A stretch of 33,883 nt of DNA from a virus, in IMG/VR virus record IMGVR_UViG_3300023240_000057, positions 1 through 33,883 of that record. One strand, given 5' to 3'. The notes under the pieces were generated by a model. The model was given only the letters and a program-made list of their open reading frames with translations, was not told where the DNA came from and made no database searches. Positions 6,799 through 12,222 of this stretch are shown in pieces (positions within the stretch are counted from its first letter, which is position 1; every line of letters begins with the position of its first letter). Position numbers and translations under genes: made by a program.

Positions 6799-7383
6799 AT
6801 GAAGTTCGATTGCAGTTTTACTGATATGGTTAAGGTCAACGAGATCAAGCCACACCCAAAGAATAACAACACCCACCCGAACGAACAGGTCGAGGCTTTT
6901 CAAAGAGTAATCTCTAAAAAAGGGGTATGGCGCGTTCCGCTCATCGCATCAAAGAGATCGGGCCTTTTAGTGTCCGGACACTTGCGGTTGCAGGTAGCGA
7001 AGAACTTGGGTTTGAAAGAACTGCCAGTAGTATACCAAGACTTCAAAACAGAAGCCGATGAATACCAATTCCTAACATTCGATAATGAAATAGCCCGATG
7101 GGCCAGCCTAGATTTAGAGGCTGTGAAAATTGAGTTGCAGACCTTTACAGATTTGAAGCTAGAAGACTTGGGGATCAAGGTTGATCTTGGAGAGGGTGAT
7201 CTAGTGGATGATGAGGACAGGGAGCCGCGCGCAACAGATGACGGATATAGTATATTCGAATTGGTCATGCAGCACGATAACAAAACGCGCTTTATAGACA
7301 CGTTGAATGATATTAAAAAAGAGCATAGCTTGGATAAGCAAGAGGATGCGCTTATGGTTTTAGTAAATGATTACAAAAAATAG
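6799..7383 (+). CDS. ParB/Srx-fold protein 1
   Basis: This 194-residue protein has a ParB N-terminal-type domain over about residues 10-115. It shows INEIKP-like and HPNEQVEAF segments, then LVSGHLRLQVAKNLGLKELP, the conserved GHLR motif of the fold. No DNA-binding helix-turn-helix of partition ParB follows; instead there is an acidic C-terminal half. Phage proteins of this class sit beside DNA methylases or PAPS-reductase-like proteins and may bind nucleotides (the fold includes CTPases, nucleases, serine kinases and sulfiredoxin). Here it opens a cassette with a cupin, a DUF3440-like protein and a second ParB-like protein. The activity cannot be told from sequence. Confidence 0.88.
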   Translation: MKFDCSFTDMVKVNEIKPHPKNNNTHPNEQVEAFQRVISKKGVWRVPLIASKRSGLLVSGHLRLQVAKNLGLKELPVVYQDFKTEADEYQFLTFDNEIARWASLDLEAVKIELQTFTDLKLEDLGIKVDLGEGDLVDDEDREPRATDDGYSIFELVMQHDNKTRFIDTLNDIKKEHSLDKQEDALMVLVNDYKK

Positions 7384-7397
7384 AAAGGGATATTGTT

Positions 7398-8201
7398 ATG
7401 ATTAAAGAAAATGATGCGTTTATGACTTTTAGCGAGGACACCGATGGTTTGTTGTTTGATGATGCAGAGCACCCCATTCACCCTATTAGATATTATAACG
7501 TGGCGAACTTAAAACCGTTTAAGTCACAGGAAGATACGAGCGTTCAAGTTTATGTTTACTCTGGTGACTTCTTTATCCAAAGAGAAGATCAAATGCCAGT
7601 ACCGTTGAGCAAAGGTATGTATTACAGTTTGGCCGAGCCGCATGAGTTGTTACCAGTAAGTGGTGACTCCAAGGCTATTGTAATTGAGGTTTTACATAAC
7701 AAGGGCGTTTATCCTGATACCAAGTTTTCCTCTATGTTTACAATGGGTGGCCCGATTGAAACAACCGGACGTTTAAAATATATTGATGGGTGTACTGATT
7801 CGTTATTGATTCCGCCTGTTAAGATGGGCGATCCTTGTTTGAATCACCTGCACTTCCCATCTGGTATTATCCAGACCGCGCATACGCATAACAGTCACCG
7901 GATTGGTGTTGTCGCTAGGGGCACAGGAAAATGCGTAACGCCCTTTGGTGAGCTACCTTTGAAGGCAGGCGTTATTTTCATCATCAAGGAGTGGGATGGC
8001 GAAACAAGAAAGGCTGGATTAGATGGAAAAGACTATGAAGTGGGAAACCATTGCTTCCACACTTTCGGCGAAACAATGGATGTTATCGCGTTTCACCCTG
8101 AATCAGATTTTGGCCCAGAAGATCAGGATCATCCGATGATTAACAGAACTTTCGTGGATGGTATTTCAGCCAAAGATATTGAATCAATTAAGACAGCTTA
8201 G
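7398..8201 (+). CDS. Double cupin protein
   Basis: This 267-residue protein looks like two cupin beta-barrels. The first (about residues 30-115) lacks the usual histidine cluster. The second (about 140-240) has H150, H152, H162, H164 and H167 in a block ending at VVARGTGKC, plus H218, H221 and H233, so it likely binds a metal. Bicupins include dioxygenases, isomerases and sugar-modifying enzymes as well as small-molecule sensors. The gene follows ParB-like protein 1 by 14 nt with a GAAAGGGA ribosome-binding site and abuts the PAPS-reductase-like gene, so it probably acts in the same process. A metal-dependent enzyme is the favoured reading; the substrate is unknown. Confidence 0.75.
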   Translation: MIKENDAFMTFSEDTDGLLFDDAEHPIHPIRYYNVANLKPFKSQEDTSVQVYVYSGDFFIQREDQMPVPLSKGMYYSLAEPHELLPVSGDSKAIVIEVLHNKGVYPDTKFSSMFTMGGPIETTGRLKYIDGCTDSLLIPPVKMGDPCLNHLHFPSGIIQTAHTHNSHRIGVVARGTGKCVTPFGELPLKAGVIFIIKEWDGETRKAGLDGKDYEVGNHCFHTFGETMDVIAFHPESDFGPEDQDHPMINRTFVDGISAKDIESIKTA

Positions 8202-9380
8202 GTGAAGGTAAGGAAAAAACAGTACCTCGACAAAGGCGTGTACGAGGTAGCTTTAGAGAGAATCAGATATATTTACGATTCTTTTGATAAGGTAGTTGTG
8301 TCCTTTTCAGGTGGGAAGGACAGCACTGTTGTTTTGAATTGCGCCCTAGAGGTAGCGCGTGAGAGAAACGCGTTGCCTTTGAAGGTTGTGTTCTTTGATG
8401 AAGAGGCTATACACCCACCTACAATCGAGTATGTGGAACGGATGCGCGTTTCTCCTGAGATTGATCTTGATTGGTATTGCCTGGAATTTAAGCACCGGAA
8501 CGCATGTTCTAATGAGGAGCCGTTTTGGTATACATGGGACGAAGATAAAAAAGACTTATGGGTAAGGGAGTTGCCGGAGCATGGCGAAATAATTACCGAG
8601 CACCCTGCGTTTAAGAAGGGGATGAGTTTTCAGGAGTTTTCACCATACCTATACAACCGTAGCTTTGGCAGGGTCGCCATGCTAACAGGGGTTAGGAGCC
8701 AAGAGTCGCTTCGACGTTATCAGATGATAGCTAAGAAGAAAAACGATGCCTACATAAATTCCAAATCAGAGAAGGGGCAAAGTCAATATAGGTGCCACCC
8801 TGTTTATGATTGGTCGAGCGAAGACGTTTGGCTTGCAGTCAAAAAGTTTAATTGGGATTACAACAAGACTTATGACGTGTTCAATCAAACAAGGATGTTC
8901 AATAGATTTTTAACGCAAAGGGTATGCCCGCCATTTGGTGAGGAGCCGTTGCGTGGTCTATGGATTTACGCCGAGTGCTTTCCTGAGATGTGGCATAAAA
9001 TGCTGTACAGGGTCAAAGGTGTTGGCACTGCTTGGCGTTATGCGAATACAGATTTGTATTCCAGCGTAAAGAGTAAGCCGGATCACATGACCTACAAAGA
9101 TTATATCGGGGTCATTATTGATTCGTATGATGAAGAGTATGCGGTCCAGGTTATGGCTTCGGTTGATAGGTACAAGCGATTGCATATTAAAAAAACAAGC
9201 ATGCCTATAGATGAAGAGTTATCGCACCCTATATCCGGCGTATCTTGGAAGTGGCTTTGTAATATTGCCTTGCGTGGTGATTTTAAGGGCCGACAAAGCA
9301 ATACCTTAAATAGTTTTGCAGGCAAGGTTAGGGAAGACTTAGGTATTTCGCTAGGCACAGCATTGAAGGAGTACGCGTGA
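8202..9380 (+). CDS. DUF3440-type PAPS-reductase-like (PP-loop) protein
   Basis: This 392-residue protein starts with GTG immediately after the cupin stop, implying coupled translation. It has the PP-loop SFSGGKDST (34-42), GVRSQESLRR (163-172) and YDWSSEDVW (202-210), the core of the PAPS-reductase/ATP-pyrophosphatase fold. C242 in VCPPFGEEPLRGLW and C259 follow, the region typical of the YbdN/DUF3440 group rather than of true PAPS reductases. Relatives adenylate a substrate, often in sulfur chemistry; DndC of DNA phosphorothioation shares the fold. ParB-like genes flank it, echoing the E. coli ybdN-ybdM pair. Whether it modifies DNA, a nucleotide or an amino acid is open. Confidence 0.9.
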   Translation: MKVRKKQYLDKGVYEVALERIRYIYDSFDKVVVSFSGGKDSTVVLNCALEVARERNALPLKVVFFDEEAIHPPTIEYVERMRVSPEIDLDWYCLEFKHRNACSNEEPFWYTWDEDKKDLWVRELPEHGEIITEHPAFKKGMSFQEFSPYLYNRSFGRVAMLTGVRSQESLRRYQMIAKKKNDAYINSKSEKGQSQYRCHPVYDWSSEDVWLAVKKFNWDYNKTYDVFNQTRMFNRFLTQRVCPPFGEEPLRGLWIYAECFPEMWHKMLYRVKGVGTAWRYANTDLYSSVKSKPDHMTYKDYIGVIIDSYDEEYAVQVMASVDRYKRLHIKKTSMPIDEELSHPISGVSWKWLCNIALRGDFKGRQSNTLNSFAGKVREDLGISLGTALKEYA

Positions 9381-9874
9381 ATATCTTTGAAGCCTCTGAT
9401 ATTATCGACAAATGGGATTGGGTGTATGCAAAGAGCTATGACAAAACCTTCCCTCATTCTTATGCGCAGCGTAGAAAAATAGCCGATGAGAATGAATACG
9501 AATCTTTTTTGCGCTTGATAAGGTATGCAGGCAGAACAAGATCGTTTTTCTCTAAGCAATACATATACTTAACCATAGGCGAGTACGAATACTGGGAGAT
9601 GGGCCGTCCCATACCCTGCGTCCAGGTAATCAACAAAGCTAAGATCGACATATCAAAAGACTACAAGAAAACAGAAGTCACTCCGGCTCAAGACTTAGCC
9701 TTAAAGCATAAACTTACAATGAGGGAAGACTACCTGGAAGATTTGCTTTACAAGCATGGTAGAACGCCACAAGAGGAATCGATTGTTAAATTTTTAATGG
9801 ATACGAACCGCAGAATACATGGGGGTGGTAAGAATATCCTCGACCACTGCGATATGAAGGTGAGATATGAATAA
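9377..9874 (+). CDS. Conserved-looking hypothetical protein of the PAPS-reductase cassette
   Basis: This 165-residue protein overlaps the PAPS-reductase-like gene by 4 nt (GTGA) and the next ParB-like gene by 8 nt. The first 95 residues look like a compact globular domain with many aromatics (KTFPHSY, YIYLTIGEYEYWEMG, IPCVQVINKA); the C-terminal part is helical and charged. I recall similar domains near phage DNA-modification genes but cannot name a family. Its tight coupling on both sides argues that it is a working partner of the cassette rather than a passenger. Confidence 0.8.
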   Translation: MNIFEASDIIDKWDWVYAKSYDKTFPHSYAQRRKIADENEYESFLRLIRYAGRTRSFFSKQYIYLTIGEYEYWEMGRPIPCVQVINKAKIDISKDYKKTEVTPAQDLALKHKLTMREDYLEDLLYKHGRTPQEESIVKFLMDTNRRIHGGGKNILDHCDMKVRYE

Positions 9875-10367
9875 GCAACCATTGGACAAAATCACATGGG
9901 TTGATCGGGATACGCTAAACCCGAACGACTACAATCCGAACAAGGTCGCGCCTCCGGAGCTAAAGCTTCTGAAAATTAGCATCCTAGAGGATGGGTGGAC
10001 GCAGCCAATCGTCGCAAACGCCGACAACACAATAGTTGATGGTTTTCATAGGTGGACTGTATCGGGCCATAAAGAGATTTATGCCTTAACAGATGGAAAG
10101 GTACCAGTTGTTTTTCTAGCTGATAAGGATGATGCTAGTCAAAAGATGTCAACGATCCGACACAATCGGGCGCGTGGCACTCATGGCGTTATTGAGCTTT
10201 CAAATATAGTTGGCTCTATGTTAGAATCAGGCTTGACAGGTGAAGAAATTATGCACCGTTTGATGATGGAAAAAGAAGAAGTCACTCGCCTACTCTTCAA
10301 GCTAGGAATACCGAATAGCGATGTTTTCAAAGACAAGGAATTTAGCAAGGCGTGGATTCCTGAGTAG
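9867..10367 (+). CDS. ParB/Srx-fold protein 2
   Basis: This 166-residue protein is a second, diverged ParB-like domain. TLNPNDYNPNKVAPPELKLL and DGWTQPIVAN precede the motif IVDGFHRW (about residues 50-57), the counterpart of the DGxHR signature in this fold. The C-terminal part (EEIMHRLMMEKEEVTRLLFK) resembles a short helix-turn-helix. It is clearly not a recent copy of the protein at 6799-7383: the motif in that one is SGHLR. Two different ParB-like proteins flank the cupin/PP-loop pair, which suggests distinct roles. It ends 9 nt before the small terminase gene. Confidence 0.88.
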   Translation: MNKQPLDKITWVDRDTLNPNDYNPNKVAPPELKLLKISILEDGWTQPIVANADNTIVDGFHRWTVSGHKEIYALTDGKVPVVFLADKDDASQKMSTIRHNRARGTHGVIELSNIVGSMLESGLTGEEIMHRLMMEKEEVTRLLFKLGIPNSDVFKDKEFSKAWIPE

Positions 10368-10376
10368 GGGTAAGGT

Positions 10377-10799
10377 ATGAGCGAAGAAAAAAAACCAGGC
10401 GGCATAGGTCGCGCTGCTACAAGTGGCAGCTTCAAAGCAGGAAGCAAGGGAGGCGCAGGCCGTCCGAAGCTAACCCAAAAAGAAAAAAGTGTTCGTGAGG
10501 CGCTGCGCGTTAAAATCGCAGATGTGGCCTACCTACTAACTATCCCAAAAGAAGAAGCTGTTGAGATATTGAACAGGACTGACGGCACCTTGCTGCATAA
10601 TGTTCTAGCCAAAGCAATCCGTGACAATGATAATAAGATTATAAAATACTTCATCCTTCGTATGTTGGGATTGCCTAAACAGATCATCGAGCAAACAACA
10701 CATGATGGCGATGCTGTTGACTTGTCAAAACTTAGCGATAAAGAACTGGACCAATACTTAAAACTAACGGAAAAAGTTGCAACCAGTACAGATAGATAA
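10377..10799 (+). CDS. terS: Probable small terminase subunit
   Basis: This 140-residue protein begins with a Gly- and Lys-rich segment ending in AGRPKLTQKE, similar to the DUF5681-like N-termini seen on phage small terminases. A helical region (REALRVKIADVAYLLT to FILRMLGLPKQ) and an acidic C-terminus follow. Small terminase subunits recognise phage DNA and regulate the large subunit. The assignment rests mainly on position immediately before the large terminase gene, which it overlaps by 23 nt, and on size. A GGGGTAAGG ribosome-binding region precedes the ATG. Confidence 0.7.
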   Translation: MSEEKKPGGIGRAATSGSFKAGSKGGAGRPKLTQKEKSVREALRVKIADVAYLLTIPKEEAVEILNRTDGTLLHNVLAKAIRDNDNKIIKYFILRMLGLPKQIIEQTTHDGDAVDLSKLSDKELDQYLKLTEKVATSTDR

Positions 10800-12222
10800 G
10801 CTTCGTGCTGAGAAGTGCAAGCGGAGTTTTTACTTCTTTGTCCAGACCTTTTGGGAAGACGTAGACCCAGAGCCATTCATAGACAGTTGGGTAGTGAAGT
10901 GCGTTTGCGAACACCTGGAATCTATTGAAAGGGGGGATATATCGAATCTCATTATCAACATTCCGCCGTCGATGGGAAAATCTATTATTGTTTCGGTTAT
11001 GTTTTCAGCTTGGTTATGGGTAAAAAATCCTTCAAACAACACCCTTTGCTCTACTCGAAATTATCAGAACTTAACGCGTGATGCGATTAAGTTTTACAAC
11101 CTTATCAAATCAGAGAAGTACCAGTATTATTTTGGCGACCTGTTTACTATGGGATCAGAGGCCACTAGGGGCACAGGAAAAAAGATCAGCGAAACAATCA
11201 AGGCTATCGACAACAGTGAAAAAGGTTATCGACGCGCAGTAACTACAGGCGCAGGGGCTACAGGCGCGCGTGGTAAGATCATTATATTAGATGATCCTAA
11301 TGACAGGGGTGATGCTTTTTCGGAAGTCGATCGGGCGCGTATCAATGAGTATGTTTTCAAAACCCTATCAACCCGTAACTTTGCTAAAAAAGGTGGGGCG
11401 ATGGTAATCGTTATGCAGCGCCTACATGAAGAGGATGTGGCAGGAGTTGCCATCGAAAAGGGTTATAACCTTTTGAAAATCCCTATGGAATACAAAGACG
11501 GCGAATCAATCTTTGCGATAAAGGGATGGGCAGACCCAAGGGAAGATGGCGAGTTTATAAATCATGAGCTTTACGACTCGACCAGTAAGAGAAAAACCAT
11601 ACTCGATATGGGAAGCCTAGAGTACGAAACCCAATACATGCAGAACCCAACGATCCAAGACGGCGATATGATTAAGGCTGCCTGGATCAAGAACAATCCG
11701 CTACCTAAAGATAACAATGGCGATCTTACTTTTGAGAATGACATTATGACTTTTGATCTAACCTTCAAAGGCGATAGCTCTGCGGAAAAGAAGGGTGAGC
11801 TTGATTTTGTAGTAGGCGACTACTGGATCACGCATAAGGGTGAGTTCTACCTAGTCGATCAGGTTCGTGGTAAGTGGGATTTTTCTGAACAGCTAAAGCA
11901 AATTCAATGGTTCTTTGACAAGCATCGTCCAAATAAGTTATCCATTGAGGATGCTGCTAATGCAAGCGCGGTTTACTCGGTGATCCAAAACACTATCCCA
12001 CAGGTAATGCTATGGAAGCCCCAAACCTCAAAGGTAGCTAGGGTCAATGCTGTATCTCCGCTGTTTGAGGCATTGCGCGTCAACATAGACAGGGATAAAT
12101 TTCCAGTAACTTACAAGGAAACTTTATCTTTTCCGAACGCTAAACATGATGATACAGTTGATGCCATGACAATGGCCTTAATTCAATTAAAACAGGGGTA
12201 CACGATTTTCGATTATCTATAA
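10777..12222 (+). CDS. terL: Large terminase subunit (packaging ATPase-nuclease)
   Basis: This 481-residue protein has an ATPase half with Walker A PPSMGKS (63-69) and Walker B IIILDDP (168-174). Its RNase-H-like nuclease half has D327 in TFDLTF, E391/D392 in SIEDAANAS and HDDTVDAM at 457-464. It pumps DNA into the prohead and cuts concatemers. The only plausible start is TTG at 10777, inside the preceding gene; no ATG or GTG lies in frame before the ATPase core, so a rare start with translational coupling is likely. The length fits the family. Nothing is missing from either active site. Confidence 0.95.
   Translation: MQPVQIDKLRAEKCKRSFYFFVQTFWEDVDPEPFIDSWVVKCVCEHLESIERGDISNLIINIPPSMGKSIIVSVMFSAWLWVKNPSNNTLCSTRNYQNLTRDAIKFYNLIKSEKYQYYFGDLFTMGSEATRGTGKKISETIKAIDNSEKGYRRAVTTGAGATGARGKIIILDDPNDRGDAFSEVDRARINEYVFKTLSTRNFAKKGGAMVIVMQRLHEEDVAGVAIEKGYNLLKIPMEYKDGESIFAIKGWADPREDGEFINHELYDSTSKRKTILDMGSLEYETQYMQNPTIQDGDMIKAAWIKNNPLPKDNNGDLTFENDIMTFDLTFKGDSSAEKKGELDFVVGDYWITHKGEFYLVDQVRGKWDFSEQLKQIQWFFDKHRPNKLSIEDAANASAVYSVIQNTIPQVMLWKPQTSKVARVNAVSPLFEALRVNIDRDKFPVTYKETLSFPNAKHDDTVDAMTMALIQLKQGYTIFDYL

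Follow-up and report, generated by a model that had tools for sequence, protein, structure and literature searches.

A recurrent cassette with a bicupin and an IbrA-type PP-loop protein, encoded next to viral terminase genes, is a probable DNA-modification module

The uncultivated virus contig IMGVR_UViG_3300023240_000057 from IMG/VR, analysed over its whole length of 33,883 bases (hereinafter, the window), carries a cassette of five genes next to its terminase genes. The cassette encodes two ParB-like proteins, a bicupin, an IbrA-type PP-loop protein and a protein of no assigned function, and probably is a DNA-modification module. The cassette and the adjoining terminase genes are arranged as follows:

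6799..7383, + strand: ParBa, a ParB-like protein with the SGHLR motif (ParB-like PHROG match)
7398..8201, + strand: bicupin (weak Pfam match, AlphaFold fold, conserved core)
8202..9380, + strand: IbrA, an IbrA-type PP-loop ATP-pyrophosphatase (PAPS_reduct and DUF3440), GTG start (Pfam, PHROG)
9377..9874, + strand: Unk4, a protein of no assigned function (shorter relatives in other IbrA cassettes)
9867..10367, + strand: ParBb, an IbrB-type ParB-like protein with the DGFHR motif (phrog_2159)
10377..10799, + strand: putative small terminase subunit (TerS), the downstream edge of the slot (position only; no Pfam or PHROG match)
10777..12222, + strand: large terminase subunit (TerL), the fixed landmark beside the slot (Terminase_6N/6C, phrog_38)

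All five open reading frames of the cassette are present, point in the same direction and are closely packed, with successive gaps of 14 bp and 0 bp followed by overlaps of 4 bp and 8 bp; ParBb ends 9 bp before the putative TerS, and TerL comes next. The coordinates and spacings agree with an earlier, sequence-only reading of this DNA, which described five co-directional genes abutting or overlapping from the cupin onwards, and the motifs that it named in the PP-loop protein (SGGKDST), ParBa (SGHLR) and ParBb (DGFHR) are all in place. Elsewhere, the window encodes a contractile-tail structural module, with portal, head, sheath and baseplate matches, and its minus strand carries helicase/primase genes.

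IbrA matches PF01507 (PAPS_reduct, 60 bits) and PF11922 (DUF3440, 37.5 bits), both above the cut-off, as well as phrog_2302 (1e-87), which is labelled 'phosphoadenosine phosphosulfate reductase' (PAPS reductase). ATP pyrophosphatase activity and adenylation are established for PP-loop enzymes, and the intact SGGKDS motif predicts the same activity for IbrA. ParBb, the constant partner of IbrA, matches phrog_2159 (4e-65) and is 42% identical to gp5 of Mycobacterium phage Akoma; in the window, the two genes are separated by that of Unk4. The latter protein is confined to cupin/IbrA cassettes, apart from short relatives detected with hidden Markov models (HMM) in four IbrA cassettes (loci L238, L239, L248 and L287) and the weakly similar N-terminal domain of a Microbacterium phage Hendrix methyltransferase, encoded two genes ahead of IbrA (24% identity over 97 aa; tblastn E 6e-3; HMM E 0.012). 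The AlphaFold model of Unk4 had no match in the PDB (best Z 3.3), and a structural search of viral proteins produced one clear match, to an unnamed 93-aa protein. In the IbrA tree, the deep branches of which are long and partly unsure, the cupin-bearing cassettes form two groups, and the glycosyltransferase-bearing cassettes form another, together with phage Hendrix.

The bicupin call made from the sequence alone was borne out: the Pfam matches, to Cupin_2 and AraC_binding, are weak, but the AlphaFold model (pLDDT 89) is a bicupin, and its core is conserved in 38 distinct aligned homologues, of which the 37 from outside the window are 35–64% identical to the window protein. Residues H162, H164, R168 and H218 are invariant, nearly all of them being shared with chromosomal relatives, and the C-terminus is strongly conserved (HPDSDFGPxDxxHPMINRT). 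The nearest folds are the DUF861 bicupins, including (S)-ureidoglycine aminohydrolase (Z 17.5–18.9, rmsd 3.1–3.5), although the window protein is only 14–16% identical to these and has no Pfam DUF861 match. A BFVD search with the cupin yielded partial matches only.

A genome scan recovered chromosomal relatives of the cupin from cyanobacteria, Bacteroidota, Methylococcales, Planctomycetota, Verrucomicrobiota and others. Close to the chromosomal cupin, no more than three co-directional genes away, lie genes for an AsnB-like synthetase (20/71), a zinc-ribbon protein (19/71) and a protein denoted c3 (10/71), called PP-loop-like from its SGGIDST motif, with no Pfam match. The proximity of chromosomal cupins to c3, and of phage cupins to IbrA or a second PP-loop protein (PP2), suggests that the cupin partners PP-loop enzymes both in and outside phages. 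A conserved chromosomal set of bicupin, AsnB-like and zinc-ribbon genes, in some cases with c3, is found in many phyla (L089, L104, L105, L121, L123, L129 and others). In Mycobacterium phage Gaia, gp104 (L143:6606-7505), encoded directly after IbrA, is a small ectoine-synthase-like cupin fused to an IbrB-type ParB, which is an independent cupin–ParB link.

Two scans of IMG/VR yielded 56 loci, 48 of them with the cupin; several of the 48 contigs end early and some are near-duplicates. Of the 48 cupin loci, 39 have a ParB gene immediately upstream of the cupin, 45 have the PP-loop gene no more than three genes after it, and 42 have ParBb after the PP-loop gene. Thus, the five-gene group recurs as a unit, and this recurrence rules out a chance gene cluster. 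The recurring order is ParBa, cupin, an optional PP2, an optional class-II glutamine amidotransferase, the IbrA-type PP-loop protein, an optional unknown protein, ParBb and terminase. A large terminase gene is found within five genes after ParBb in 40 of 44 loci, as counted by PHROG checks and clustering (a motif regular expression undercounted terminases). These terminases belong to at least five distinct PHROG families (phrog_38, 2/3717, 15, 979 and 9), and the near-constant position beside different terminase families suggests that the cassette moves as a unit among phage backbones, nearly always into the same position.

Among 50,697 annotated phage records (INPHARED), relatives of IbrA are present in 215 and those of ParBb in 220, with matching tallies of the leading host genera. 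This IbrA/IbrB pair (phrog_2302/phrog_2159) matches the cassette in its two core proteins and in their order, whereas the bicupin is absent from all these records, as judged with two different cupin queries. The isolated-phage IbrA neighbourhoods that we examined contain no separate PP2 or amidotransferase gene. A search of plasmids for the bicupin recovered one very large replicon.

To characterize the position occupied by the cassette, we examined 80 IMG/VR loci with relatives of the TerL of one cassette locus, L009. The slot is flanked by homologous ParBa and by TerS–TerL, TerL being 57–66% identical among these phages; compared with the loci that carry TET, TAGT or Mom, L234 shows 41–58% identity in ParBa and 57–61% in TerL. 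Between these flanks, L234, L237 and L243 carry the cupin/IbrA cassette (ParBa-cupin-[PP2]-[amidotransferase]-IbrA-ParBb); others, such as L258, L265 and L268, a glycosyltransferase and a Tet_JBP oxygenase (PF12851, 47.4 bits against a cut-off of 34.9); L259 and L262, a TAGT gene (PF20691, 3e-34); and L278 and L282, a Mom gene (PF25680, 148 bits against a cut-off of 27.1). Other loci of this type are empty between ParBa and TerS–TerL. In L239 and L287, ParBa comes after IbrA-ParBb, and the accessory genes resemble those for a glycosyltransferase and a methyltransferase. Of the 49 loci with at least 2.5 kb of upstream sequence, 14 carry IbrA and 18 a TET, TAGT/glycosyltransferase, Mom or Dcm-like gene, with no locus belonging to both sets (hypergeometric probability 4e-4, shared ancestry ignored).

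The same exchange is apparent among isolated phages of the Bclasvirinae, where the slot reads ParB-DpdA-QueC-QueD-QueE-FolE-TerL in Laurie, ParB-TET/JBP-amino acid:DNA transferase (ADDT)-P-loop nucleotide kinase-TerL in Mithril (the TET/JBP match, 26.1 bits, is under the Pfam cut-off) and ParB-x-x-IbrA-ParBb-TerL in Akoma. The mycobacteriophage slot contains the dPreQ0 pathway in B2, TET, ADDT and kinase in B4, and IbrA-ParBb in B3. The ParB proteins of Akoma and Laurie are 48% identical and their TerL about 60%. In Rosebush, which belongs to the same genus as Laurie, dPreQ0 has been measured at about 28% of guanines (PMC6884629), and the first five genes of phage Tonitrus are reported to include those for ParB, TET, aGPT-Pplase2 and 5-hmU kinase (PMC11955845). 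Modification-related genes also accompany IbrA itself: a glucosyltransferase-methyltransferase-acyltransferase run precedes it in Hendrix, a DNA methyltransferase occupies the cupin position in RHph_I4 (ParB-DNA methyltransferase-IbrA-IbrB), and a queuine TGT is encoded near it in phiFN37. A search of IMG/VR with the Laurie DpdA found four loci, too few to gauge ParB–DpdA linkage.

Because the same slot holds known DNA-modification modules in related phages, we consider the cassette to be a post-replicative DNA-modification module that occupies an exchangeable slot immediately ahead of the terminase genes, with a probability of roughly 0.75. This equivalence strongly supports the compact phage DNA-modification pathway that had been proposed from the sequence alone. 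The ParBa family stands ahead of TET/JBP, TAGT and Mom modules, and of DpdA in phage Laurie, from which we infer that ParBa is a generic companion of DNA-modification modules in the ParB–terminase slot.

The five genes do not constitute one fixed pathway. Rather, the cupin, PP2, amidotransferase and unknown protein are swappable parts around an IbrA-ParBb core, and ParBa is common to all slot modules. PP2 (212–265 aa) is encoded between the cupin and IbrA in many loci, and a class-II glutamine amidotransferase with the N-terminal sequence MCGI(W/F)G is found in several lineages (L003, L006, L007, L012, L014, L028 and L032) and is absent from the window. Contigs L009 and L010 show 99.2% identity up to and including the cupin gene and 98.3% from the IbrA region onwards, with PP2 genes only 31% identical in between; such a clean swap is as expected of arms-race variation. 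Similarly, PP2 is present in L004 and missing at the same junction in L019, and in L023, a DNA methyltransferase (phrog_757) takes its position. A sodium:solute symporter (PF00474, phrog_20720) is encoded in place of the cupin, between ParBa and IbrA, in L052 (712-2124). In L048, L049, L051 and L053, gamma-glutamylcyclotransferase-like and amidoligase-like genes, recognized by eye only, lie downstream of ParBb on the minus strand.

In the mechanism that we propose, IbrA would adenylate, at the expense of ATP, a group carried by DNA or by a precursor bound to DNA, and ParBb, a ParB-fold nucleotide-binding protein, would act with it on DNA, with ParBa as a general companion. The cupin, along with PP2 and the glutamine amidotransferase where present, would build or finish the added group, for which nitrogen (amide or amine) chemistry would be more likely than phosphorothioation; PP2 and glutamine amidotransferase are the kinds of partner that take part in forming amides or amines. 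Biologically, the module would let the phage evade host nucleases, accessory genes being exchanged as hosts adapt. More tentatively, the cassette might exemplify a new kind of DNA hypermodification: IbrA would adenylate a base or the backbone directly, and swappable partners would add a nitrogen-based group, without TET, DpdA or hydroxymethyl-pyrimidine precursors being required; we hold this possibility to be somewhat doubtful.

The sequence-only reading had also drawn an analogy to sulfur chemistry and the Dnd system. Under such a scheme, the cassette would carry out phosphorothioation or another DNA thiolation, with IbrA acting like DndC on sulfur from a host cysteine desulfurase and ParBb acting like DndB. 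Both Dnd and BREX type 4 (DndC, BrxP) indeed share with the cassette a PAPS-reductase-like PP-loop fold and a ParB-superfamily partner, the PAPS-reductase-like protein of BREX type 4 being documented (PMC12839542), and PADLOC DndC profiles match IbrA, albeit in fragments (3e-12). The window protein keeps all four cysteines (C93, C102, C242 and C259), including the two C-terminal ones noted in the sequence-only reading; these two, however, are not conserved in the family (C242 in 27 of 41 members, C259 in 31 of 41). Cysteines are missing from entire clades in which the cassette persists (L003/L006/L014/L021 and L048/L049/L053), and no cysteine is among the invariant positions of the family, so that cysteine-dependent thiolation is unlikely as its general function. 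Moreover, the score against the DndC equivalog TIGR03183 is 33.8 bits, far below the cut-off of 290.4; none of the five cassette proteins, to which the scan of this contig fragment was limited, matches PADLOC models of DndB, DndD or DndE; and the partners are PP2 and a glutamine amidotransferase. The analogy is accordingly not supported, and we regard thiolation as unlikely.

Slightly less probable still is a small-molecule pathway, for example one making a sulfur or serine metabolite, or one of sulfate assimilation in which the PAPS reductase would be an auxiliary metabolic gene. The PAPS_reduct match and the PHROG label point in this direction, as do the AsnB-like enzymes adjoining chromosomal cupins and the symporter next to IbrA in L052, but the exchange of slot contents with TET, Mom and dPreQ0 modules, the two ParB-like proteins and the linkage to terminases argue against such a pathway. 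A dedicated sulfate-assimilation operon was dropped from consideration, the curated CysH models scoring 30.5 bits against a cut-off of 154 and 19.4 against 165. Finally, IbrA and IbrB have been annotated as co-activators of prophage gene expression (PMC4490671, PMC8813620); our literature searches turned up no paper that connects this pair, or the cassette cupin, with DNA modification. Apart from that annotation, a regulatory pair has little to commend it and appears very improbable: conserved PP-loop and ParB motifs would be unexpected in a transcription regulator, as would cupin, amidotransferase, methyltransferase or glycosyltransferase partners and slot exchange, and DNA modification could itself yield a regulatory phenotype.

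Several observations weigh against assigning the cassette to DNA modification. We could find no report of a modified nucleoside measured in an IbrA phage. The slot equivalence is shown for relatives of the L009 and Akoma terminases, whereas the TerL of the window itself has relatives too distant for such a comparison (at most 36% identical), of which only L221 and L232 carry IbrA. Some IbrA-ParB pairs lie away from terminases, near holins and an antirepressor in a Streptococcus phage and near RecT in a Microcystis phage. Chromosomal relatives of the cupin do not adjoin DNA genes, and the four cysteines of the window protein leave room for sulfur chemistry in its lineage.

Compared with the known modules, the cassette shares the pre-terminase slot and the ParBa companion with the TET/JBP-TAGT, Mom and TET-ADDT-kinase modules, but the enzymes are wholly different, no TET, Mom or kinase gene being part of the cassette, and these modules were never found together with IbrA in the loci examined. 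The 7-deazaguanine modules (DpdA/QueCDE/FolE) likewise occupy the same slot next to a homologous ParB, as seen in Laurie and Akoma, and also involve PP-loop chemistry (QueC, Gat-QueC), but the cassette lacks genes for DpdA, QueD, QueE and FolE.

The slot holds further gene sets. An ABC-type ATPase, a GNAT protein and a formyltransferase are encoded by separate genes, recognized by eye, in the ParB–terminase slot of L292 (4377-6198), and the slot module of Gordonia phage NHagos (L151, 630-2473) has ABC and GNAT fused in one protein; this set, found in two unrelated phage lineages, is a candidate for another modification module. In L255, L257, L299 and L301, a different PP-loop, PAPS-reductase-like protein (phrog_424; e.g. 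L257:1616-2458) is encoded upstream of ParBa; it keeps several cysteines (NNCVGC, CDSGxCG) and may be a true sulfur-using relative. Adjoining TAGT in L267 (3488-4456) is a fusion, identified by eye, of phosphoglycerate-mutase-like and nucleotidyltransferase-like domains, which perhaps supplies an activated sugar or polyol. The TET/JBP-like protein of L258 (5787-6683; PF12851) matches phrog_6059, labelled queuine tRNA-ribosyltransferase, and Mithril gp2 (L150:785-1759) bears that label too, although Pfam points to Tet_JBP; the label looks wrong.

The viral 'PAPS reductase' and prophage co-activator annotations of the IbrA family probably need revision. If IbrA does adenylate DNA directly, as in the more tentative scheme above, the IbrA-type 'PAPS reductases' found in over 200 sequenced phages would be enzymes of DNA modification and not of sulfur metabolism. 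The slot evidence turns the long-unassigned IbrA-ParBb pair into a hypothesis open to test in tractable phage isolates, for example Mycobacterium phage Akoma, and the arrangement ParBa-X-terminase would provide a marker for finding more modification modules. The cassette, which most likely serves to disguise viral DNA chemically from bacterial defences, would extend the known range of phage DNA hypermodifications by a chemistry based on a PP-loop enzyme and possibly forming amides.

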